Shown here: piece after piece, positions 266-59,032 of the stretch | Position numbering within the stretch: position 1 is the first letter of the stretch | How the letters are laid out: each line of letters starts with the position of its first letter | DNA from: Thuidium tamariscinum | Lineage: Eukaryota; Streptophyta; Bryopsida; Hypnales; Thuidiaceae | Direction: 5' to 3' | Assembly: GCA_947034885.2 (NCBI GenBank) | Contig: OX344752.2 | Span: 18,910,001-18,974,000 of the forward strand | DNA: 64,000 nucleotides | The notes under the pieces: model-generated | The model's database searches: none | Seen by the model: the letters and a program-made list of their open reading frames with translations, nothing else | Told to the model about the DNA's origin: nothing | Program-made: the position numbers and the translations under genes

Positions 266-3200
266 ATGGAGAGTGATGCAAATGACACTAGTGACACCAA
301 TGATGCAATTGACTCAAAGAGATCATATGAAAGTGAGGCAAGGCTTGGCAAGAAATTGTGTGCAATTGAAGGTGTGGTTAGTTTTATCCTTGGTTCCATT
401 AGAAACTTGTTCTTTTTGTATTCCATCTTTATTTATCATCATTTGCAATTTAAAAATGCTTACCTTTGGATACATTTGCAAACATGACTTATTTGATGCA
501 ATTTGGACATGTTGATTTTTGAAGTAGATTGATAATTGGTTGTTGTACAGATGAATTTGGAAGCTATGACGTTTTCATAAGCCATAGAGGCCCTGACACC
601 AAGACAGGTTTTGTGGGCTATTTATATGAAGCTTTGAAAAGAGTTGGATTGCATCCATTTCTAGATTGCATATCTATTGGGAAAGGCCAAGATTCTTGGG
701 CATGCATTGACCACGCTATCAAGACAACACCCCTAGCTCTAGTCATCTTTTCCCAAAGTTTTATACAATCTGAGTGGTGTTTGAAAGAATTGCATGCAAT
801 GTTGGATTCTCCTTCAATGAAGGTGCTACCCATCTTCTACAATGTTCAACCTTGGGAAGTGAATTTTCCAGAAAAAGGACAATTATCTGTTGGTTTCTTG
901 AAGTTGACAGAGAGGCATGATACAAGTGTCTCGGAAGAATGGAGGGCTGATTTGAAAAGAGCTTCCAAGCTTACTGGTTGGGAGTACAAAGTGGGAGATA
1001 AGAGGTAAATATGTAGGTATGCACTATTTGTTATGAAGAATTTGTAGTAGAACTTGACATTGACATTGTATTTGGTGATATTGAAATTTGTTACAAATTG
1101 TTGCAGGTCGGAAAAGGACTTGGCATTAGAGGTTGTAGCAAAGATTTGCAAATTGGCAAATAAACCCCTTCCCTTGGATGAGGTGAAGCAAGTTGCTGAG
1201 TACCTCATTAATACCATTGATGAGAAGAAAGTATCGGTGTTGGGATTGGTGGGAATGGGTGGAATTGGAAAGTCCACTTTGGCAAAAGAGGTATACAACC
1301 AATTGGGGCAAAGATTTGATGCAATGTGTTATGTGGAAGATGTAGTGGAGAAGGTGAATCAAGGTGGTGTGATGACTATCCAAAATTATATTTTGAAGGC
1401 CTTGTGTGTGGATGAATCAATGTTAAGTATTGTTGATAAATCAAAGAATAAGGCTATTCTTGAAGAGAGATTATCAAAGAAATCCATTCTTTTGGTTTTG
1501 GATAATATTCATGACCATGATCAATTGGATTATCTATTATCACATAAAATGTTGAAGGAAGGTAGCATATGCATTGTCACTTCTCGAAACTACCACACCT
1601 TTGAGAAATCAACTTCCTTTCATGTCAATCATGATATTTACATTCATGATGTTCAATTGATGAGACAAGAAGATTCTCAAAGTTTGTTTGCATATTATGC
1701 ATTTGGAGATGAATGGGAAGTTCCTCAAAGATTTGAAAGTCTTGTTGGAGGCCTTCAACATTTGAAAAGCTTGGATCTCATAAGAAGTGGGATCCAAAGA
1801 TTACCCGAATCTCTTGGATTGTTGAGCGATTTGAAAGAGTGGAGTTTAAAGGATCGTGTAGTGCTATCAGATTCACTTGAAGGCCTTCAACATTTGAAAA
1901 GCTTGGATCTCGAAAGAAGTGGGATCCAAACTCGGATCCAAAGTTTACCCGAATCTTTTGGATTGTTTAGCAACTTGGTGGTGTTGAGTTTTAAGAACTG
2001 TAGTGAGTTTGTGGAGCTACCAGATTCATTTGGAGGCCTTCAACATTTGAAAAGCTTGGATCTCGAAAGAAGTAGGATCCAAAGATTACCCGAATCTCTT
2101 GGATTGTTGAGCAATTTGGAAGAGTTGAGTTTAAAGGATTGTGGTGAGCTCATGGAGCTACCAGATTCACTTGAAGGCCTTCAAAATTTGAAAAGCTTGG
2201 ATCTCGAAAGAAGTGGGATCCAAAGATTACCCAAATCTCTTGGAACGTTGAGCAACTTGGAAGTGTTGAGTTTAAAGGATTGTGGTGAGCTTGTGGAACT
2301 ACCAGATTCACTTGAAGGCCTTCAAAATTTGAAAAGCTTGGATCTCGAAAGAAGTGGGATCCAAAGATTACCCAAATCTCTTGGAACGTTGAGCAACTTG
2401 GAAGTGTTGAGTTTAAAGGATTGTGGTGAGCTTGTGGAACTACCAGATTCACTTGAAGGCCTTCAACATTTGAAAAGCTTGGATCTCGAAAGAAGTGGGA
2501 TCCAAAGATTACCCAAATCTCTTGGAACGTTGAGCAACTTGGAAGTATTGAGTTTAAAAGATTGTGGTGAGCTCATGGAGCTACCAGATTCACTTGAAGG
2601 CCTTCAACATTTGAAAAGCTTGGATCTCGAAAGAAGTGGGATCCAAAGATTACCCAAATCTCTTGGAACGTTGGGCAACTTGGAAGTGTTGAGTTTAAAG
2701 GACTGTGGTGAGCTCGTGGAGCTACCAGATTCACTTGAAGGCCTTCAACATTTGAAAAGCTTGGATCTCGAAAGAAGTGGGATCCAAAGATTATCCGAAT
2801 CTCTTGGAATGTTGGGCAACTTGGAAGTGTTGAATTTAAAGGACTGTGGTGAGCTCGTGGAGCTACCAGATTCACTTGAAGGCCTTCAACATTTGAAAAG
2901 CTTCGATCTCGAAAGAAGTGGGATCCAAAGATTATCCAAATCTCTTGGAACGTTGGGCAACTTGGAAGAGTTGAGTTTAAAGGATTGTGGTGTGGAAGTA
3001 CAAGACAATTCCAAAACCTCATCTCCCGGAGTTTCAATTGAAGATGATGATTGTCTAAGCAAGAATTTTAAGGGGGCTTGGTACACCACCAAGTGGATCA
3101 TTCATGGAGATCTACTAGAAAGAACTTTGCTTTGCTTCTTCAATGTAGAAGAAATGCAATATGAGTTCTATTTTGAAGATCATGAAAGTATGGCAACTAT

Positions 3201-4890
3201 TATTGGACTTGGGGTGCCTTATTCAAAGGTCATTTTGAAATGTGGGAATCTTTATGTAATAGTTGTTGAAATTTTAAAAGAAGATTGGAATGCCATGTGG
3301 GCCCTTCCAAATATTATTTCATATTCAATCCCAGAAGGCTATGTTTTGAAGCAAAAGCAATTTCCTGACATCCTCCATTGCATTGCAAACATTATTAACA
3401 TCAACAACATTGCAAGTAAGGCAAATAATAATGGTGTTGGAGGTAATAGTGGAAAAGACAAAGCTCAAGATAATGCTGATGTCAATAAGGGCAAGGGCAA
3501 GGCTCATGACCATAGTGATCATGAAAATGGACATTCAAATAGAGGTTCTAATGGAGCTCGTGATGATAATGACAAGAAGGATAGGAAAGGGAAAGATAGA
3601 GATAGTGCTGAAAAAAACAATGATGATGAAGATGATGGGAAGATTTCAAATGATTGTAAGGAAGTCCAAGCTATAGTTCATCTCCGCTTATTGCCAGGGG
3701 GAAATCTTATAGAAAAGAAAAAAGAAGGGGAAGTTCATGATATAGAAGTAGAAGAAATGAAAAAAGAAGGGGAATGTAGCAAGGGAGTGGAAAAGAAAAA
3801 GAAACCTAAACAATTGTGGCATTTCCATAAGCTAGATGATAATGGCAATGTTGTTGGAAACCATCAAAAGCAGACAAATATTGAGGAAGTTCAAAATGGA
3901 GATGTTGATGAAAATTTGCAAAAACAATTAGAAAAACAAATCCATTCATACATGGTGTTTACTTTTACAATCAAAGATGAGGCTGGAGGACAATTGAAAA
4001 CTATCCAAGCAACCATTGATCCTATAACTTTCCAACTTCCCTCCAACAATGAGGAGAATTATTTGCAAAGGAGGCGATTTGGTTGGTTTCACAAAAAATT
4101 GCAAGTTGCTTTCGGAGTAGTCAATGCACAAGTTGCAGATTTGGATGCAAAGTCCTGCAAAATCATTGATTCTTCTGAGGTCAAGGAAGTAAACTTACAA
4201 GGTAATTTAGAGGGAAATGCAAGAACATGTACAAATGCCATCAAAGGGGAATTGGGAATAAAGCATGGTGTCATTGCAAGTGCTAGAATGGGTAGAATAG
4301 GTGGAACAGGATCCCACACTGCTAGAGAGGTTCAGAATTCTTGGGAAACCAACAAACCACTTACAAAAGCTGGCTTTTCCATTTTAGAACATACAAACTT
4401 AAATGTTCAGCAACTTAAGTATTCATATCATCCTCACCTTCCATTCAAAGAGAAAGAGTTTGATGTAATAGATGAAGATGATCGCTTGAAGATGTATGAA
4501 CATCCTATTTGCCAACTACAACGAGTGAGTTGTGAAGGCACATGGTATCCAGACCATTCAGAATATTTGGAAAAATATAAACTTGAAGCAAGTAGAGAAC
4601 TTGGAATGACTAGAATCTACAATTTGGAACCGGAGAGTAGAATGGAGAAGATGCGAAAGGGGGTATCAAAAATTGAAAAAAGTTCGCCTCTTTGCTTCAT
4701 TCAAAAGCTAGAAAAGGTATTGTATTTAAACCATTCTTTATCACACTTGACTTCTTCAACAACTGAAGTGTATCGCGTGAAAGAACGACAAGATTCAAGC
4801 AATACATCAATATCCATTCTCACTCAAGCACAAAATAAAAGAGAACCTATATGGCCCGATAATGATCGTCTTGTAGATGTGAAGGAATGA
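266..4890 (+). CDS. TIR-NB-LRR receptor, NB-ARC apparently lacking its second half, with long novel C-terminus
   Basis: Intracellular immune receptor type. Exons are 266-371, 551-1004 and 1107-4890, with GT-AG introns in matching phases 1 and 2; product 1447 aa. Exon 1 encodes an acidic leader. The TIR domain (about residues 40-180) opens with YDVFISHRGPD and has WCLKEL, which carries the Glu needed for TIR NADase activity. The NB part has a P-loop GMGGIGKST (about 235), RNBS-A, kinase 2 LLVLDNI (canonical LLVLDDV) and RNBS-B. It then passes from the LFAYYAF segment straight into LRRs near residue 398, with no GLPLAL or MHD motif. LRRs span about 400-816, followed by 630 residues of unrecognised sequence. 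The ATG at 266 is the first in frame with exon 1. The frame is open throughout, so it may be expressed, but ATP-switch function is doubtful without ARC2. Confidence 0.85.
1749..2995 (+). repeat. 141-bp tandem LRR array inside the TNL
   Basis: The motif GGCCTTCAA recurs at 1749, 1882, 2035, 2176, 2317, 2458, 2599, 2740 and 2881. The last seven starts are spaced exactly 141 bp (47 aa, two leucine-rich repeats per unit). Units at 2161-2301 and 2302-2442 look identical base for base, which indicates recent unequal exchange. The first two units are 133 and 153 bp. Each unit keeps the LxxLxLxxC pattern of plant LRRs. Confidence 0.95.
3000..4887 (+). other. Unrecognised C-terminal extension of the TNL (about 630 aa)
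   Basis: After the last LRR the same frame continues with a globular stretch (3060-3400) rich in aromatic residues. A low-complexity Asn/Asp/Lys/Gly linker follows (3420-3660), then a Lys/Glu segment (3700-3820), then a second globular region (3940-4800) with FGWFHKKLQVAFG, GWFH-type aromatics and conserved-looking Trp/Pro positions. I recognise no known integrated decoy, WRKY, BED, kinase or C-JID domain. It may be an integrated domain or a lineage-specific post-LRR domain. Confidence 0.6.
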
Positions 4891-5772: not shown

Positions 5773-7488
5773 CACTACAAGAATATGAGCATTTTATGAC
5801 TGCCAAAATATGACTGGAGATGATTAGCGACTGCTCGCAGTCATATTCTAGGAGTCCTAAACTTTGCGGAAAAATATGACTACAAAATATGACTGCCAGT
5901 CATATTTTGCTTTTCTACACTTTGGATGTATAGTATACAGTCATTGAGAACAACTAACATTTTATAGGGAACGATATGGAACGTATGATGGGAACACTAC
6001 TTACACTAGTCATATTTGTCAATCATATTTTTGCATATATGACTACATGTAGTCATATTCTACAATCACATTTTTGTAGGTTCACATTTTCTTAAGATTT
6101 TTTTTCGGGCACCCTCCTAAAAATTTGGGCAATAAAAAAATATAAATAAAAATTATTGCTACAAATTAATAAAATCCTAGCCATTGTTTTGGGGAAATCT
6201 TGAAATCCTAGCTAGCCGTCATTTTTAGGGTTTAAAAACCCTAGCCGTCATATTTAGGGTTCCAAAATCCTAATCGCCACTTCATTTGCTTCATCTTCTT
6301 TGTGTTGTTGCTTTAAGACTCTTATTCCTTCTTCCTCTTTAGTTTTTTGAAGTTCTACTTATTGTAGTGTTGTGTTTTAGTTGTTGTTGTTTAATTGTTG
6401 TCTTCTAACTCTTGTTTCTTCTTGCTTCTTTTGTTTTTTGAAGTTCTACTTGTTGTAGTGTTGTTGCTTAGTTGTGGAGGTTTTAGTTGTTGCTTCTTAG
6501 TTGTTACCAATTTGTTGTTGCTTCTTATCTCTTAGTTATTGTTAGTTAGTTGTTGCTTCTTAGTTGTTATTAATTAGTTATTGCTAGTTTGTTGTTGCTA
6601 GTTTGTTATTGCTTTTTAGTTATTGTCTCTTAATTGTTGCTTCCAAATTGTTGTTTCAAGATTGTTGCTTCAAATTGAATCTTAACTCTTGCTTAATTGT
6701 TGTTTTTCAGACCTTTTCTTTTATTGTTTATTATTTTTTGCCTCTTATTACCTCTTATTACATCTTAACTTGTCTTATTTTTGCTTATTATTAGTTTTTA
6801 GTTTTAGTTTTTGTTGCCCCTTATTATATCTTGGCTTTTATTTCTTACTTTCTTTTAGTACTAACTTGAACACAAATATGACTCACTACAGTCATATTCT
6901 ATATTATCCAAAATATGACTCACCATAGTCATATTCTATATTACTCAAAATATGACTCACCATAGTCATATTCTATATCACTCAAAATACGACTCTCTAC
7001 AGTCATATTCTATATCACTCAAAATACGACTCTCTACAGTCATATTCTATATCACTCAAAGTATGACTCATCATAGTCATATTCCACATCACTCAAAATA
7101 TGACTCATCATAGTCATATTTCATATTATGAATCACCTCCTGAAGTCATATTCTATGTCAACAAAAATATGACTAGATGCAGTCACATTCCACATAGGAT
7201 TTTTTTATTTTGCCCGGGCAGCTCATGAAAAAGTCAAGCCTCCAAGTATGGTCAATATATACGCCATGTTGGCAAAATACATCTAAAAAAGGTTTATTAT
7301 ACTACCAAATCCATATGACTGCAAATATAACTCACCAGTCATATGACTGAAAGTGAATGACTCGACCATGACTCATCTCAGTCACATTCCGCTCATCTAC
7401 AGTGATTTTTGCTTGAATCACATTCTTGAATTTTGTAACTCACTGTAGTCATATTTTGCAGTCACAAAACACTCATTTTCTTATAGTG
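5773..7488. mobile_element. Non-autonomous CACTA (En/Spm-type) transposon, 1716 bp
   Basis: It begins CACTACAAGAA and ends TTCTTATAGTG, the diagnostic CACTA terminal inverted repeat. Both ends are flanked by the 3-bp duplication CTA (5770-5772 and 7489-7491). Similarity between the ends continues into subterminal TATGACT/AGTCATA motifs repeated dozens of times, as expected for transposase-binding subterminal repeats. No transposase ORF is present, so it must be mobilised in trans. The interior (6100-6850) has Leu-rich TTGTTG low-complexity sequence and 'aaaccctagccgtcat' stretches that resemble a captured plant 5' UTR. Confidence 0.88.
6876..7134. repeat. 37-bp subterminal tandem repeat of the CACTA element
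   Basis: Seven units start at 6876, 6913, 6950, 6987, 7024, 7061 and 7098, exactly 37 bp apart. Each contains the inverted pair ATATGACT...AGTCATAT. Two units carry TACGACT instead of TATGACT. These are probable transposase-binding arrays of the CACTA element. Confidence 0.9.
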
Positions 7489-20970: not shown

Positions 20971-23269
<2,299 letters not shown>

Positions 23270-42045: not shown

Positions 42046-45000
42046 ATGGCGGATCGCAAGCTGCGTATTGCGTTGTGCCACCCCGACCTTGGCATTGGTA
42101 AGCTGCGATCGAATCCTGCGGCGTCTTCTTGTTTTCGCATTATCGTCTTCTTGTTTTGTTGCGGCTTCGTACGAATTCCTGGATTTGTAATAATGATGTA
42201 GTGTCTTAGGTTTCATTGTGAAGTTTCGGACACTCCACGGTGATTGTTCCTTGCGCGTGTCTTCTTGAGTTGTTTAATCCTGTCGATGTGAATTAATAAT
42301 CAAAGCAAAAATGTTCGCTAACGGTAGTCTGTCCGCATTGCATTGCTCAGGTGGTGCAGAAAGGCTGGCCGTGGACGCTGCTGTGGAATTGACAGCACTA
42401 GGACATCATGTGCACATTTTCACGGCGCATCATGACAAGAAGCGATGCTTCGAGGAGACGATCGATGGTGCTTTTCCTCTTTTGTTATCTTGATGATGCT
42501 AAGACTATTTGAAATTGAGTCTTGCAAGTACTTCTGAGAGTGCCGGCTAGAGAAATGGCGTGAGAAACGGGTTAATCTTAGTTGTTACCTTGTCTGCAGG
42601 GAGCTTCCCTGTAACAGTTTACGGTGACTTTCTACCTCGACATGTTTTTAATCGATTACATGCTGTCTGCGCGTATGTTCGTTGCGTTTACGTGGCAATT
42701 TGCATGGTTCTCTTGTGGCCGAAGTTTGATGTTGTTTTCGCGGATCAAGTTTCAGCCGTCATACCCGTTCTTAAATTGAAGAGAGGATGCAAGGTAATTT
42801 CTCTAGAAATGCCTCATATTTGAATTCTAGTGCAGCGCTCTATTAATGTCTCTGCACATGCACTTGCCTGAATTGTTGCGTCACAGGACATTTATACATT
42901 AGATGGTGGAGCACAATGCACTCGTCCTCAGTTTGTTGCTCCATGACATTTTTGCCCTTAATGCCTCACCTACAGTGATGAGATTTTCTAGCATCGCATT
43001 GAAAGTTTCTTAGTTTCAGCAAGTTTCCTGTTCATTGTGTCGGATTGTATTCATTTTTAAGTTCGTTTATGCCATATCTGTCCAATCTTATGATTTTCAT
43101 ATCACACATTAATGCTACATTGAATGCTCTGCAATTATATAGCAATACCACAGTAAAACTCGGCAATCGTGGTATTGACTTCCTTAAATATGTGCTTAGC
43201 ATTTTCTAAAAGATTTGAGTCTGTGTTTTGGTCTTCGGTAGGTCTTGTTCTACTGCCATTTTCCAGACATGCTACTTGCTCAGCGCACAACTCGGCTTCG
43301 CAGACTTTATCGAGCACCTCTGAATTGGATTGAGGAAACCACCACTGGTTTGTGACCTTCCAAAATTTTCAGTGCCTCTCAAGTTCTCTGACTCTGGGAG
43401 TTTCATAATGGGCTTATTGCAGATATCCATTGTTTTAGTTTACTGTTCTTACATTCTTCATTGCATAACCTTATATGTTGGAGCCACCGAATTGGTTATA
43501 TTTATTTCATCTTTTATTGGTTATTGGTTCGACTGGTCATTGAATTTGATAAAACCACCCTTGCTGATCTTAGAGTCTCTTGTTAGCGACCAGATTAGGT
43601 TATGGCTGTGGCCATGACAGAGGCGGAATCTTTCATCTTGGCGGGTGGTTGTCTTACATTGCTGGTAGAGGGTGCTCATGGGCCTTTGACCCCAATGCAG
43701 GTATGGCGGACTGCGTTTTGGTGAACAGTGAATTCACAGCATCCACATTTGGCTCCACGTTTACTCGACTTGAGGCGAGAGGCCTGCATCCAGCAGTACT
43801 TTATCCTGCTGTTGATGTCCATCAATTTGATACTTACCTAAACAATCCTCCTGATGTCAAGTTCATGCCTGGACATTCAGCTGATGGGTTAGTACGACTC
43901 CGTATGGTGTGTAATGAGTTCGAAATTAGATCGTCGTTATATGCTGGTTTGCTTGGGTCTTCTCGATTCTTGCTTTATTTTTGTACTGGCCTGTCTTTGT
44001 TTGCTTGAAAACAAGAAATATTTACCGTCACATGTATGTATCTTGAACTTTGCAGGGCGTATGGGAATTTAAACCTATTTGCGCCGCGGTTAATTGGATG
44101 AAATATTGGGATAGTAGTATTAATAAACTCGTATGATTAATTAAATTAAGACCATTTGCGGTCTTCTGTTTTTTTAGAACTGGGATTAAACTTGTGTCTC
44201 GCGTTCCTCGGTGTACCTACAGGCACACCTTTCTGTCTATTAACAGGTTTGAGAAGAAGAAGAACATAGCTCTCGCCATATCCGCATTTGCGACCCTTGT
44301 GAGGCAACAAGAGAACACGCAGCTAACCAGTGTGCCGCGACAACTTGTTCGCTTAGTTGTTGCAGGTGGGCTGCCTGCTTCATTTATTAAAAAAAACAAA
44401 AAACTGTCGTGGATTTTCATTCGTGGAACTCTCAAAGATCCTTTCATGAACAAATTTACCCGAAAGAGATTGTACCATTGTGGTATTGTCCTGCTATGAT
44501 GTTTATTATTATAACTCTAGGAGTCGTCAGGTGGCTATGATAAGCGACTGGCAGAGAATCGGGAATATTTACAAGAGCTTAAAACCTTGGCTACTGACGA
44601 GGGAGTGGTGGAGCAAGTGATCTTCGTACCATCTTGTTCAACTCTACAGAGAAACGCTTTGCTGGCGGCATGCATCTGCGTTCTTTACACTCCAATGGTA
44701 TCCATTATCTAACCCTTGCCACCAAGTATTTCCTCTGAGTTGCTAGGCTTGTTTGTCCACCGAGGTAAATCATAGAGAATTTTTATTCGTTACGCTTGCT
44801 GGTAAAATTGAAATTACTCGAGAATATTTAATTGCCAACAAATCCCAGAACCAGAGCAGTGTGTATTGCTTTGTGTTTTTGTGCTGCTGCTAAAGGCATT
44901 CGCATTTTTGGCGCAGAATGAGCACTTCGGCATTGTTCCCCTTGAAGCAATGGCTGCTCAAAGGCCAGTTGTGGCTTGTAATAGTGGGGGGCCGAAGGAA

Positions 45001-45207
45001 AGCATACAGCATGCTAAAACAGGTTACTTATGCGAATCTACCCCAGAGAGCTTTGCTTCTGCGATGGCTCTGATCCTTCAAGATTCCTCCAGGGCAGAAG
45101 TCATGGGCAAAAATGCGAGAAAGCATGTGGAGGAATACTTTTCAAGGCAAGTGTTTGGTGAACGACTGAATTCTATAATTTACAACCTTTTGAAGGTCAG
45201 TTCTTAG
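42046..45207 (+). CDS. ALG2: ALG2 alpha-1,3/1,6-mannosyltransferase
   Basis: Adds the second and third mannose (from GDP-Man) to the dolichol-linked N-glycan precursor on the cytosolic face of the ER. Eight exons: 42046-42097, 42351-42467, 42600-42793, 43242-43347, 43701-43887, 44223-44365, 44531-44697 and 44917-45207. All introns are GT-AG with consistent phases. The product is 418 aa, the usual size. It starts [22 protein letters not shown] (split by intron 1), with the N-terminal GGAER motif of GT4 enzymes. It then shows [39 protein letters not shown] and, in the last exon, [11 protein letters not shown] (E-x7-E, Glu324 and Glu332), the nucleotide-sugar site. Single-copy housekeeping gene that appears fully intact. 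Confidence 0.96.
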
Positions 45208-53225: not shown

Positions 53226-56200
53226 TCACCAGTATTTTCCGACATGGGTACCTGATATTGTACGCCCAGCAGTACCGACTGCTAGTCCTAGATGCTTACA
53301 AACATCGTTGCACTTGTGGGTGTCGAAGAAGAGCTTGAAGCCTTCCGTACCGAGGTTGGTACGCGTGAAGCGCATGACATCTGTACAATGAATGGCAGGA
53401 TCGCAAAGACGGAAAACACTTTCTCCGTGCTCATTTTTCTGGCGAACTCCTTGGAGGTCGTTCACCATCAAGAGACCCCGAGATCGCTCGTGAGTCCAAT
53501 GCGTGAAGGCTTGCAAAACAGCAGCGTAGTCCAGTGTGTTGACATAGCCACCGTTGTTGGAATACCGGATCCAGTTGCCTTCGAGAACCTCTTCCATGTT
53601 GTAGAACTTTCGGGTGGGTCCAGAATCCACTTCCAGCGTGGTGACTTGGGTGAACTCCACCTTCTTTACATTCTTGAAGTTTGATGTCCTGTGAATCAAA
53701 TTACCGAGAAAATTAGGCATGATCTCAGTATTCTCTTACAAAGATCAGAATACAGCTGTTCTAGAAGAGGCATTCTAGAAAACTTAACCACACTCCAATT
53801 TGTTTATTTTCTTGCAGGAGGAGGGGGCTGTTCACTAGTGAAACGTGAAAAAAGAATGAGAAAGATCCTCACTTAGTGATAATTACAGGGTAACAATCTG
53901 ATCACCAAGTAAGTCTTTTGACAGGCATGTCCTAAGGAAAGTACCAAAATTAGAATCCTTGCGTACTTAAAGCTGGGAGCACTGCACAAAAGACTTAATT
54001 GCTCGAAAGAAAACCTATCTCACATGCGAGAGCTGAATTTTACCTATTATTGAATTCTTCGGCCATTTGAGCGGCCACAGACTGGACCTCCATCTGAGCT
54101 AAATAACGGTCTCTCTTATGCACTTCTCGAACGTCTTTGTTGAGTGCGGTCTTGAATCTCTTGACAACCATGAACCTGTCAAAATCAATAGTGAATCGCA
54201 ACACGTGAGAATGCATTACTCGTTGGTAGCTAATGCGAGCCCATCATCGCACAGACTCTTCAGGACAGACGCAATGCGGGATAATTCAAAGATCAAGGAA
54301 AAGAGTGCTCTACTCACCGCGGAGCTTCACTGGGGCGAGTTATCTTCGCATAGTAAGGCCATCTAACCGCCCCCTCGGAGCTGAATGGGTGTTTCGCAAT
54401 CTGCACTTGTACGTGATCTACTACTTCCTCATCAATCGCCATTTTCCTATTGATCTTACTTAATAGATCATCCAATGCCCGATACCACCTGCATTTTGCA
54501 AGTCACCCATCAATCAAAGGTCTGACGGAGAAATCTGTAAATTCAAAGTCCAATCCTCTTTGCAAATGTATACAAAAAGTCGTGTTTTTCGAACAAACAG
54601 ACCCAATACTAGTCATGAGCAACGAGCACCCCAACTCCAACAGAATTGCAGAGGAAACTTACTTATGTTTGAAGTGAGAACCAGTCTGGATTGAAATGTC
54701 AGCCCAGGAGGGTACGGCTGTCACAACCACTTCATTCACGAACTTTACATCTCCTGGAGGGTGCGCCACACCGACCACACTCAATGTTTTTTGAATGGTG
54801 CCTCGACACAACGTTACCACCTTCTCTGGGATATTGGAGATGTTGGAAAACTGCTCCTCTGTGATCGTAATTGCCCCTCCTGAGGCCTTTCTAAACTCCT
54901 GCAGCATTTTTCTCGTACTTGTATTCAGATGGCAAAAGAAATACGTTGACACTTTGCAGCGCTCATGAAGAAGTTGCAGCTGAGTCTCAATTTTGCGGCC
55001 ATACTTGTCCCCCGCTGGGTAATGATCACCCACACCGTCATGGAATTGAATACCATGGCATGGAGCATCAGCGATGTGAATTAGCAGCCTGTTCGAGGCA
55101 TTCCAGTTGAAGCCTGCTACTCGAGCAATGCCAGTGAAGACGTCTTCAGCATCATCTCCTCCGCCAGAAGCACGCACCCGTGACAAAGCCCTTACAAAAG
55201 TACTATCTGCTCCCGTAAAGCTGCTCGTGAAATCACAGGCCTCGTCGTCATCCTTGACAGTATCCTCGTAATCTCTATAAGGTGCAAACGCTACACGCAA
55301 CTTGCATTCTGGATACTGTACCTTAATCCCAGCAGCCATGTTGGCCACAGTATCTTTAATCAAATTGATGCACGTCTGCAAAACAAGATCAATAAAAATC
55401 GTGATTAAGCGAGTCGGTGGAACTTAATGAAGAAAGAAAAGGTTAGAAGAAATTGCTGATGAAAAAGAAAGGAAGATGACCAGCAGGAATATTAGAACAA
55501 TAGAAAAACTAACTACCGGCAGCGCAACGAATAGAACGAGGCACTTGCATAATCTCCTAATGTAAAATTCCATAAACCTCAATAGGCATCTCTTTCAAAA
55601 AACAGGGAGTACCTGCATGCTGCCTGTGGCATCCACCAAAAATGCAAGATCTAATTCCTGACCCGTCAGGATCATCTTCTTGATTTCGTCCGCGCGAGCC
55701 TTCGACGCAATAGCATGATTCTGCTCCAAATAGGCTAAACGTCTCTGCTGTGTTGCAGATGCATCCACTTTGGTCGCCATAAGCGCAGCATTCTCTCGCT
55801 TCACCTTTTCCAGCTGATCCATGACTTGACGAGTCCGGTCAGACATCCCAGCTGGAACATTTACTTTGCTGGCTTTGAGTAATTCATTCTCTTTCTTCAT
55901 CTTCTCCAATTCGTCTAAAACTTGCATTGTCCGACCAGACGCCGCGGCTTCAGATGGAGGTGGCGGAGCTGCCGGAGCTGTTCTGGTCTTAACTTCCACC
56001 AATGCAGGATCGTTCCTGATTTGCGCAATAGTGCGTGAAGACATGACCGGTAGAGGCGAAACCACTTCAGTTGCTTTCGGCTTTTCAGCTTCAGGGCTCT
56101 TAATCGTATCAATTTTGAAGGAAAAACTCCCCTGGGCGTCTAGATTTGGTGTAGCCTCCTCAGCCACAGCCGTCTTCTCTTTTCCAAGATCCTTCGGTCC

Positions 56201-57487
56201 ACTTGCAGCCTCCTCCGCTGATTTAGTGGCTGGTGAGAGCGAAGCCGGTGATAGCGAAGCCGGCGCGACCACTTTCGTAGGCACTTTGCTTGCCGCCAGC
56301 CTCTCATTTTCTTCCTTCAGTGCATTCATCTCCCCAAGTGCCTGCACTGTCCGAGGAGAAACACGGGAGCTTTGATCATTAACAGCTGTCCGTGCCAATT
56401 TACTCTCTGCAAGCTTCTCATTCTCTTTCTTGAGCACGTTCAATTCCTCCAGAGCTTGAACAGTCCTAGGAGACACCCGAGACGTTTGGTCTGCAGCAAC
56501 TCGAGACGGTGGAGGTGGTCCAGCCAATTTGCTAGCTGCGAGTTTCTCATTCTCTTTCTTGAGCACGTTCAATTCCTCCAGAGCTTGAACAGTCCTAGGA
56601 GACACCCGAGAAGTTTGGTCTGCAGCAACTCGAGACGGTGGAGGTGGTCCAGCCAATTTGCTAGCTGCGAGTTTCTCATTCTCTTTCTTGAGAACGTTCA
56701 ATTCCTCAAGAGCTTGCACAGTTCTAGGAGATACCCTGGAAGTTTGGTCTCCACCTACTCGGGAGGATGGTGGAGGTGGTCCAGCCAGTTTACTAGCAGT
56801 AAGCTTCTCATTCTCCAGCTTCAGATTATTGAGCTCTTCGAGGGCCTGGACAGTCCGTGGCGACACATGAGATTGTTGATCCCCAGGAGCTTGAACGGTT
56901 CGAGGAGGAGGAGCCTGCTGCACACTCTTGGGAGACAATTTACTGGACGCAAGCTTCGCATTCTCTTGCTTCAAAGCATTCAGCTCCTCCATGGCCTGCA
57001 TGGTTCGAGGAGACATTCCAACCGGAGGTAAATTGGGTGCGGTCTTGGAATTCATCCATGCTGGTGAGTGTGTCTCCGGTCCATCCGTTCGGGTTGATGG
57101 ACCATCGACATGAGGAGGTGATCCCTCCTTAGGATATCCAACAATGCTCGGATAACTAATTTTTCCAGAATCAGCTGCCACGACGCTTTGATTCAAATTC
57201 TGGTACGTGCGGGAAGACATGGGCGGAGCTGATGGTGCGAGTCGGCTTGCCATCAGCCTCTCATTCTCGAGTCTCAACTGCTCGAGCTGCTCCCGAGCCT
57301 GCAAAGTGCGTGGTGACTCGTCTGGAATAGGAGCTAAATTGGTCTTCGTTTTCGTCGCCTTCAAGCGCTCATTTTCCCGCTTCAGCTGCTCTAACTGCGC
57401 GTTGGCCTCAACTTCGCGAGTCGACAATTTACGGCTGCTCGTAGACATGCCTTCGTGAGACCCCTCGGCAATCGGATCCATACTCAT
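53226..57487 (-). CDS. VWA-domain alpha-kinase with N-terminal coiled-coil repeats
   Basis: Atypical Ser/Thr kinase of the alpha-kinase family, joined to a von Willebrand A domain as in Dictyostelium vwkA. Minus-strand coding exons: 57487-55613, 55375-54663, 54488-54318, 54175-54044 and 53688-53226; all GT-AG and in phase; 1117 aa. Residues 1-600 are an array of SPRTxQxLEEL-LKxENxxLxASK repeats (predicted coiled coil, Pro-rich linkers). The VWA domain (about 612-850) has an intact MIDAS start DATGSM, split exactly at the exon 1/2 border. The kinase domain (about 865-1115) has Lys925 in FMVVKRFK, Asp1041 in NDLQG, a glycine-rich NLGTEG, and the zinc ligands His1064, His1088, Cys1090 and Cys1094 (HxCxxxC). 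No inactivating change is visible. Substrate and role unknown. The start was chosen as the first Met after a likely 5' UTR splice acceptor (TTTCAG near 57542). Confidence 0.92.
55800..57460 (-). repeat. Tandem ~43-aa repeats of the VWA-alpha-kinase
   Basis: About ten copies of a motif (S-x-R-T-x-Q-x-L-E-E-L-x-x-L-K-x-E-N-x-x-L-x-A-S-K) are separated by Pro-rich linkers. The three central copies (about 56390-56780) are near-identical with a 129-bp period, which indicates recent internal duplication. The heptad-like Leu spacing suggests oligomerisation. Confidence 0.85.
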
Positions 57488-58930: not shown

Positions 58931-58936
58931 AGCTTA

Positions 58937-59032
58937 CTTGGGTTGCGTTGAGTTTTCAAACTTGGGTTGCGTTGAGTTTTCAAACTTGGGTTGAGTTGAG
59001 TTTTCAAACTTGGGTTGTGTTGAGATTTGATT
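58937..59032. repeat. 24-bp minisatellite, four units
   Basis: CTTGGGTTGCGTTGAGTTTT plus CAAA repeats at 58937, 58961, 58985 and 59009 with few changes. Degenerate remnants (GGGTTGAATTGAGTTGAG) continue to about 59305. Confidence 0.92.

Follow-up and report, generated by a model that had tools for sequence, protein, structure and literature searches.

A moss gene for a VWA-alpha-kinase with an N-terminal string of predicted short helices

Does a plant genome encode a genuine alpha-kinase, and if so, what kind of kinase is it? The literature we consulted describes alpha-kinases in animals, protists and fungi. The question is raised by a gene in a stretch of 64,000 nucleotides (the window), which covers positions 18,910,001-18,974,000 of OX344752.2, that is, C4:18910001-18974000 in a genome of 19 contigs and 363 Mb. 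Coordinates below are window positions unless a contig is named. Six-frame reading combined with splicing revealed a five-exon gene on the minus strand (57487-53226) that encodes a protein of 1117 amino acids (aa), with a VWA domain located N-terminal to an alpha-kinase domain in a single polypeptide. The gene is an intact, selectively maintained moss gene of the same kind as that for VwkA of Dictyostelium. Papers are cited by their PMC numbers.

A five-exon gene and its family

The coding sequence has 3354 nucleotides including the stop codon, is open from ATG to TGA and keeps its frame over all junctions. The introns (237, 174, 142 and 355 bases) are of the GT-AG type in all four cases. The open frame has its first methionine at 57487. 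Further upstream, a plausible splice acceptor (57540) points to an intron in the 5´ untranslated region. That the window contains an intact VWA-alpha-kinase gene is in our view practically certain. Its features are, all on the minus strand:

53226..57487, minus: whole coding region, five exons, 1117 aa, with an open spliced translation
55613..57487, minus: exon 1, aa 1-625, N-terminal region, repeat array and start of the VWA domain with DATGSM
55769..57421, minus: array of ten repeat units, each about 25 aa long, within aa 23-573, the linkers between them varying in length; five central units modelled as separate helices
56394..56815, minus: recently multiplied part of the array, a 129-bp tandem repeat with 3.2 copies and 91% matches (Tandem Repeats Finder)
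55616..55633, minus: DATGSM, aa 619-624, the motif of the metal ion-dependent adhesion site type in the VWA domain, all six residues invariant in the five paralogues
54663..55375, minus: exon 2, aa 626-863, remainder of the VWA domain including IADAPCHG (aa 726-733), matching PF25106
54318..54488, minus: exon 3, with the linker and the first part of the kinase N-lobe, including EGAVR (Arg905, corresponding to Arg592 of MHCK-A)
54044..54175, minus: exon 4, kinase N-lobe with Lys925, and with Phe927 and Gln947 at the places of Tyr647 and Asp663 of MHCK-A, both invariant in the five paralogues
53226..53688, minus: exon 5, kinase C-lobe with DLQG (Asp1041), DPAIH (Asp1060, His1064), HKCNDVC (His1088, Cys1090, Cys1094) and the tail; the PF02816 match covers aa 901-1094
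53247..53249, minus: Thr1111 of the tail, followed by a hydrophobic residue at +2, a candidate phosphothreonine ligand of the protein's own phosphate pocket, a role suggested by MHCK-A and eEF2K

The kinase assignment goes beyond chance, since the Pfam model PF02816 matched the whole protein over profile positions 2-185 of 185 (E-value 5.2e-47), the best sequence match of the whole protein in the PDB was a human eEF2K chain (E 9.8e-23) and the genome holds four more alpha-kinase loci. All five paralogues matched PF02816. The other nearest solved structures by sequence were the putative kinase 4kuj, MHCK-A, a TRP-channel kinase and ALPK1, and the family profile found ALPK1 (E 3.5e-17) and the TRP-channel kinase chain 1ia9 (E 1.8e-14) in the PDB. 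At an E-value of 0.001, Pfam reported only Alpha_kinase and VWA_4 in the window protein; beyond these, neither WD40 repeats nor a channel or other known domain were found at this threshold. Arg905, Lys925, Asp1041 and Asp1060 are invariant in all five paralogues, and so are His1064, His1088, Cys1090 and Cys1094, which we take to be the zinc ligands and of which the last three form the motif HxCxxxC.

The VWA domain was assigned from Pfam and from the motif. PF25106 (VWA_4) scored 28.9 bits when the VWA region of the window protein was scanned alone, above the cut-off of 27, and all five paralogues matched the model at an E-value of 0.01 or better (best E 9.3e-10). Asp619, Thr621, Ser623 and Asp728, presumably the metal ligands, are identical in the five proteins. 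Several observations weigh against the proposed domain structure. In the whole protein, PF25106 reached 21.9 bits, which is below the cut-off. Searching the PDB with the VWA profile gave no convincing match, the best integrin beta-1 chain (E 0.45) lying behind a de novo designed bundle (E 0.025), and an AlphaFold model of exon 2 alone, in which the first strand is missing, had a mean predicted local distance difference test score (pLDDT) of 34.5. The profile of the kinase N-lobe by itself was also weak in the PDB (best E 0.18). In NCBIfam, no convincing match to the VWA region was obtained; one family member matched a cobaltochelatase subunit model (E 0.0051).

The first-pass annotation of this DNA had described phase-consistent exons at 53226-57487 for a protein of 1117 aa, a VWA domain with DATGSM and an alpha-kinase domain with the lysine, DLQG and HxCxxxC. 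All of this was confirmed, the last by the profile search of the C-terminus that the annotation itself had suggested, and the strand, which it had left unstated, can now be given. Beyond that annotation, the window gene is one of five paralogues. Searching the genome with PF02816 revealed five loci on three contigs, all encoding VWA-type kinases. The four other genes were modelled by hand from splice sites: P6 (914 aa, on contig C1), P8 (845 aa, on C2), and P10 (627 aa) and P12 (680 aa), the starts of the last two being uncertain. P10 and P12 form a divergently oriented pair at C1:28.774-28.787 Mb (loci L010 and L012) with seven exons each, their kinase exons lying about 12 kb and their modelled starts about 6 kb apart. 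A search with the VWA region of the window protein yielded 11 matching pieces, all in the same five genes; more distant VWA proteins could escape such a search.

The window gene, P6 and P8 agree in both the lengths (713, 171, 132 and 463) and the phases of exons 2-5. P6 and P8 are 70-72% identical to the window protein in the VWA domain and 77% in the kinase domain; for P10 and P12 the figure is 44-48% in both. Between the window gene and P6, the ratio of the proportions of non-synonymous and synonymous differences (pN/pS) is 0.18 in the kinase domain, 0.23 in the VWA domain and 0.47 in the N-terminus, with synonymous sites near saturation (pS 0.77 in both domains). For P6 and P8, the ratio of the corresponding substitution rates (dN/dS) is 0.08, 0.09 and 0.37, respectively. 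All 30 region-pairs were calculated with our own script; a cross-check with Biopython agreed for P6 and P8, gave no estimate for 24 of the 30, and by one method returned a ratio above 1 for the N-termini of P8 and P12, which is unreliable owing to the poor alignment. Since P6 and P8 are located on other contigs, exons 2-5 are of equal length and the kinase and VWA domains are under purifying selection, these genes are a maintained family and not contamination. P10 and P12 (dN/dS 0.36 in the kinase and 0.62 in the VWA domain) are a recent pair that is less constrained and perhaps relaxed. In the VWA domain of P10, GGGYPLADVF stands in place of the stretch GGGDDAEDVF.

The contig C19 carries intact plastid genes psaA and psaB, and the genome contains 49 matches to PF00504 (chlorophyll a/b-binding proteins). 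The PDB chains closest to the encoded PsaB are 8htu, 6l35 and 7ksq, which we take to be photosystem I of Physcomitrium patens. On these grounds the host is a plant and very probably a moss.

The N-terminal array

The ten units start at aa 23, 58, 159, 209, 253, 296, 339, 377, 517 and 549, and nine distinct window units together with four from P6 give the consensus SPRTxQALxELxxLKxENExLxASK. Every one of the ten window units has Arg3, Glu17, Asn18 and Leu21. Because the central copies coincide with the 129-bp tandem repeat, the array must have grown recently. It is longest in the window paralogue, and fewer units can be recognised in P6 and P8. A genome search with four units found four places in the window gene and one weak place in P8; this search is insensitive, since it missed the units of P6.

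AlphaFold, run from a single sequence, predicted for the five central units five separate helices of 23-31 residues joined by linkers that were mostly of low confidence (mean pLDDT 69.1, predicted template modelling score 0.20). According to this model, the units are probably single helices. In the best heptad register, leucine, isoleucine, valine or methionine occupy 46% of the a and d positions and 14% of the others. As many as 443 of 2000 column shuffles did equally well, so the pattern is not beyond chance and oligomerisation is unproven. Thus, of the roughly ten coiled-coil repeats announced in the first-pass annotation, the ten units stand and are predicted to be helical; the evidence supports a string of short helices and leaves the coiled coil as no more than a possibility. 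The assembly of filaments or clusters through the array, which had also been suggested, was not borne out by this weak heptad signal.

It might also be possible that the repeats are multivalent docking motifs and not oligomerisation helices. All SPRT-helices would bind a common partner, with an avidity tuned by a second kinase that phosphorylates the Ser-Pro sites. The weak heptad signal, the modelling of the units as separate helices, the four residues identical in every unit and the greatest length of the array in the window paralogue all fit such a role, whereas the leucine-zipper-like Leu, Asn and Leu at unit positions 14, 18 and 21 and the lack of a known partner do not. On balance we consider this alternative rather unlikely, but of the competing explanations it survives best.

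The active site and a possible mechanism

Is the moss protein an active kinase? Phe927 is found at the position of Tyr647 of MHCK-A and Gln947 at that of Asp663, in all five paralogues. The alignment of Gln947 is anchored by the MHCK-A chain 5dyj, a D663A mutant, the mutant alanine of which falls in the same column. In MHCK-A, the kinase kcat is 5.8 per minute for the wild type, 0.027 for Y647F, 0.22 for Y647A, 0.063 for D663A and 0.062 for D663S, and the ATPase kcat is 1.9, 0.38, 0.29, 1.0 and 0.44, respectively (PMC4876393, Table 2). By these values, the four mutants retain 15-53% of the ATPase kcat and 0.5-4% of the kinase kcat; in its text, the same paper states values of about 0.05% and 25%, apparently for Y647F. 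Since the moss proteins carry replacements at two positions where mutations cripple MHCK-A, strong kinase activity cannot be assumed. The canonical active site implied by the first-pass annotation is therefore present in part: the lysine, DLQG and zinc residues are kept, but at two positions that govern phosphotransfer in MHCK-A all five paralogues carry other residues. Judged from the sequences, the moss branch would either compensate for the two changes or be a poor kinase.

An ATPase-like or very weak kinase that serves mainly as a scaffold would be one outcome: with the fold and the zinc and ATP sites kept and the peptide-side Tyr-Asp pair changed, the protein would bind or hydrolyse ATP and recruit partners. 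The agreement of Phe927 and Gln947 with the MHCK-A mutants that keep ATPase activity and lose most of the kinase kcat favours a scaffold. So does eEF2K, which in our own reading of VAKRY and FEDVRLQ appears to retain Tyr and Asp at both places, although HMMER aligned the lysine region differently. On the other hand, no variation was seen at the remaining catalytic residues examined, among them Lys925, Asp1041 and Asp1060. TRPM7, an active kinase, also counts against a scaffold, since it likewise lacks the aspartate. It has Glu1672 at this place (PMC4876393), and thus the Tyr-Asp pair does not define the family. In addition, VwkA autophosphorylates, a reaction enhanced by calmodulin (PMC7079120), yet its printed peptide VVLKQSKY shows a serine two residues past Lys432, which is the place of the tyrosine if Lys432 is the catalytic lysine (PMC7072818); if so, the tyrosine is perhaps dispensable in the VwkA branch. 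We regard the scaffold as unlikely.

A Gly-Thr near the C-terminus is invariant in the five paralogues, with valine or isoleucine at +2 in each. A hydrophobic residue at +2 aids the binding of phosphothreonine in the phosphate pocket of MHCK-A (PMC4876393), and the tail threonine of the moss protein would fit the docking reported there.

By analogy with these relatives, we propose a VwkA-like kinase that is placed by its VWA domain, concentrated by the string of helices and activated by autophosphorylation, a mechanism that we give about an even chance of being correct. First, the N-terminal string of ten short helices would gather several copies of the protein or dock them on a partner. The VWA domain, via a metal in its DxTxS site, would then recruit the kinase to a cytosolic or membrane partner, as suggested by VwkA and by VWA domains generally. 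Crowded kinase domains would autophosphorylate, and phosphorylated Thr1111 of the tail would dock in the phosphate pocket and switch the kinase on, as reported for MHCK-A and eEF2K (PMC4876393). Finally, serines and threonines of cytoskeletal or membrane-traffic proteins might be phosphorylated. VwkA was localised to contractile vacuoles and affects myosin II but does not phosphorylate the myosin II heavy chain in vitro; plants are reported to have no class II myosins (PMC4083560). Since myosin II is the classical substrate of related kinases, the substrate in the moss must differ. In this proposal, the location, activity and partners of the moss kinase are inferred.

A distinct moss alpha-kinase branch can also be imagined, in which Phe and Gln have taken the places of the peptide-side Tyr and Asp and activity is set by the variable length of the SPRT-helix string. 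The array would count or cluster partners, and the copy number of the 129-bp repeat would tune the switch within and between strains. This we think quite improbable.

Relatives and origin

The closest parallel is VwkA, in which the VWA domain likewise lies upstream of the kinase and which is apparently orthologous to two Neurospora crassa proteins (PMC1420674). One of the printed VwkA peptides has a similar VVxK lysine motif (PMC7072818). In contrast, the excerpted descriptions of VwkA (PMC1420674) mention no repeat array like the moss one, and because the printed peptides put the kinase near residues 420-556 (PMC7072818), the N-terminus of VwkA should be short, whereas the VWA domain of the moss protein follows a stretch of about 600 residues that includes the ten helical units. 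A further difference is that myosin II, which VwkA influences, is the very protein reported absent from plants (PMC4083560). Binding of calmodulin has been reported for VwkA (PMC1420674, PMC7072818, PMC7079120).

Other family members are less similar. The moss protein shares the zinc and DxQG motifs with eEF2K, its best match in the PDB, but contains only the kinase and VWA domains in Pfam, and eEF2K apparently has Tyr and Asp where the moss has Phe and Gln. From MHCK-A it differs in the replaced Tyr647 and Asp663, whereas the alpha-kinase fold and the equivalents of Arg592, Lys645 and Asp766 are kept. WD40 repeats, reported for four of the six Dictyostelium alpha-kinases (PMC1420674), were not found by Pfam in the moss protein. 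With TRPM6/7 and ALPK1 only the kinase domain is common. CLoG1, a microtubule protein of moss, was considered as the identity of the window protein and rejected.

Did the moss lineage acquire the gene from a fungus or another eukaryote instead of inheriting it from green algae? Mosses live with fungi. Certain fungi possess many PF02816 genes (79 and 39 in two table columns), and the family is called highly expanded in rusts (PMC4469406). However, the five copies have diverged on three contigs, possess several introns each and form two subtypes that are only 44-48% identical in the VWA and kinase domains; any transfer must therefore be old. Our scans also revealed no prokaryotic or viral source. 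Two scans of viral contigs gave no confirmed relative, and two scans of bacterial and archaeal contigs gave one match only, a chance match of 19 codons outside open reading frames of at least 80 aa, in a genome that had no PF02816 match. These scans used short peptide patterns, and thus the absence of relatives is unproven. PF02816 itself was found in none of 296 genomes of one bacterial phylum, where control genomes were silent as well and the moss genome served as the positive control for the model. Taken together, horizontal transfer appears quite unlikely. A pseudogene or contaminating contig is effectively refuted by the paralogues and is highly improbable given 1117 codons without stop or frameshift, purifying selection, the position inside a contig of 32.5 Mb and plant-type neighbours (TIR, NB-ARC, LRR and peroxidase genes).

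Several other features were observed in the window and elsewhere in the genome. A disease-resistance-type gene with TIR, NB-ARC and LRR regions is located at 523-4890 (plus strand), and its LRR region contains a 141-bp tandem repeat (8.8 copies, 91% matches), so the number of LRRs probably changes fast. A haem peroxidase gene, probably of class III (the class being a guess), lies at 21255-23019 (minus strand) in two pieces, both matching the Pfam peroxidase model. Pieces of a group 1 glycosyltransferase gene, presumably ALG2-like, are found at 43574-45207 (plus strand); of two pieces scanned, only 44812-45204 matched Pfam. Short tandem repeats are present at 6874-7120 (37 bp, 6.7 copies, 91% matches) and, upstream of the kinase gene, at 58936-59028 (24 bp, 3.9 copies, 95% matches). 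Outside the plastid contig, partial psaA/psaB-like copies with stops at C1:38344367, C2:5226827 and C6:6427592 are probably insertions of plastid DNA.

The combination of VWA and alpha-kinase domains is already known from Dictyostelium VwkA and the two Neurospora proteins. What appears new, as far as searched, is the helix array, the Phe/Gln pair in all five paralogues and the plant family. Targeted literature searches on plant alpha-kinases, which left most subscription journals outside their coverage, found no description. Predicted kinases of the alpha type, from mosses and other seedless plants, are already listed in protein databases, and the genes themselves are therefore probably not new to databases. 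Within the scope of these searches, the biology of the plant members seems not to have been studied. In a moss with strong genetics one could ask which role an alpha-kinase plays in the absence of myosin II. Such work would also test whether a natural branch can do without the Tyr-Asp pair that was found critical in MHCK-A.

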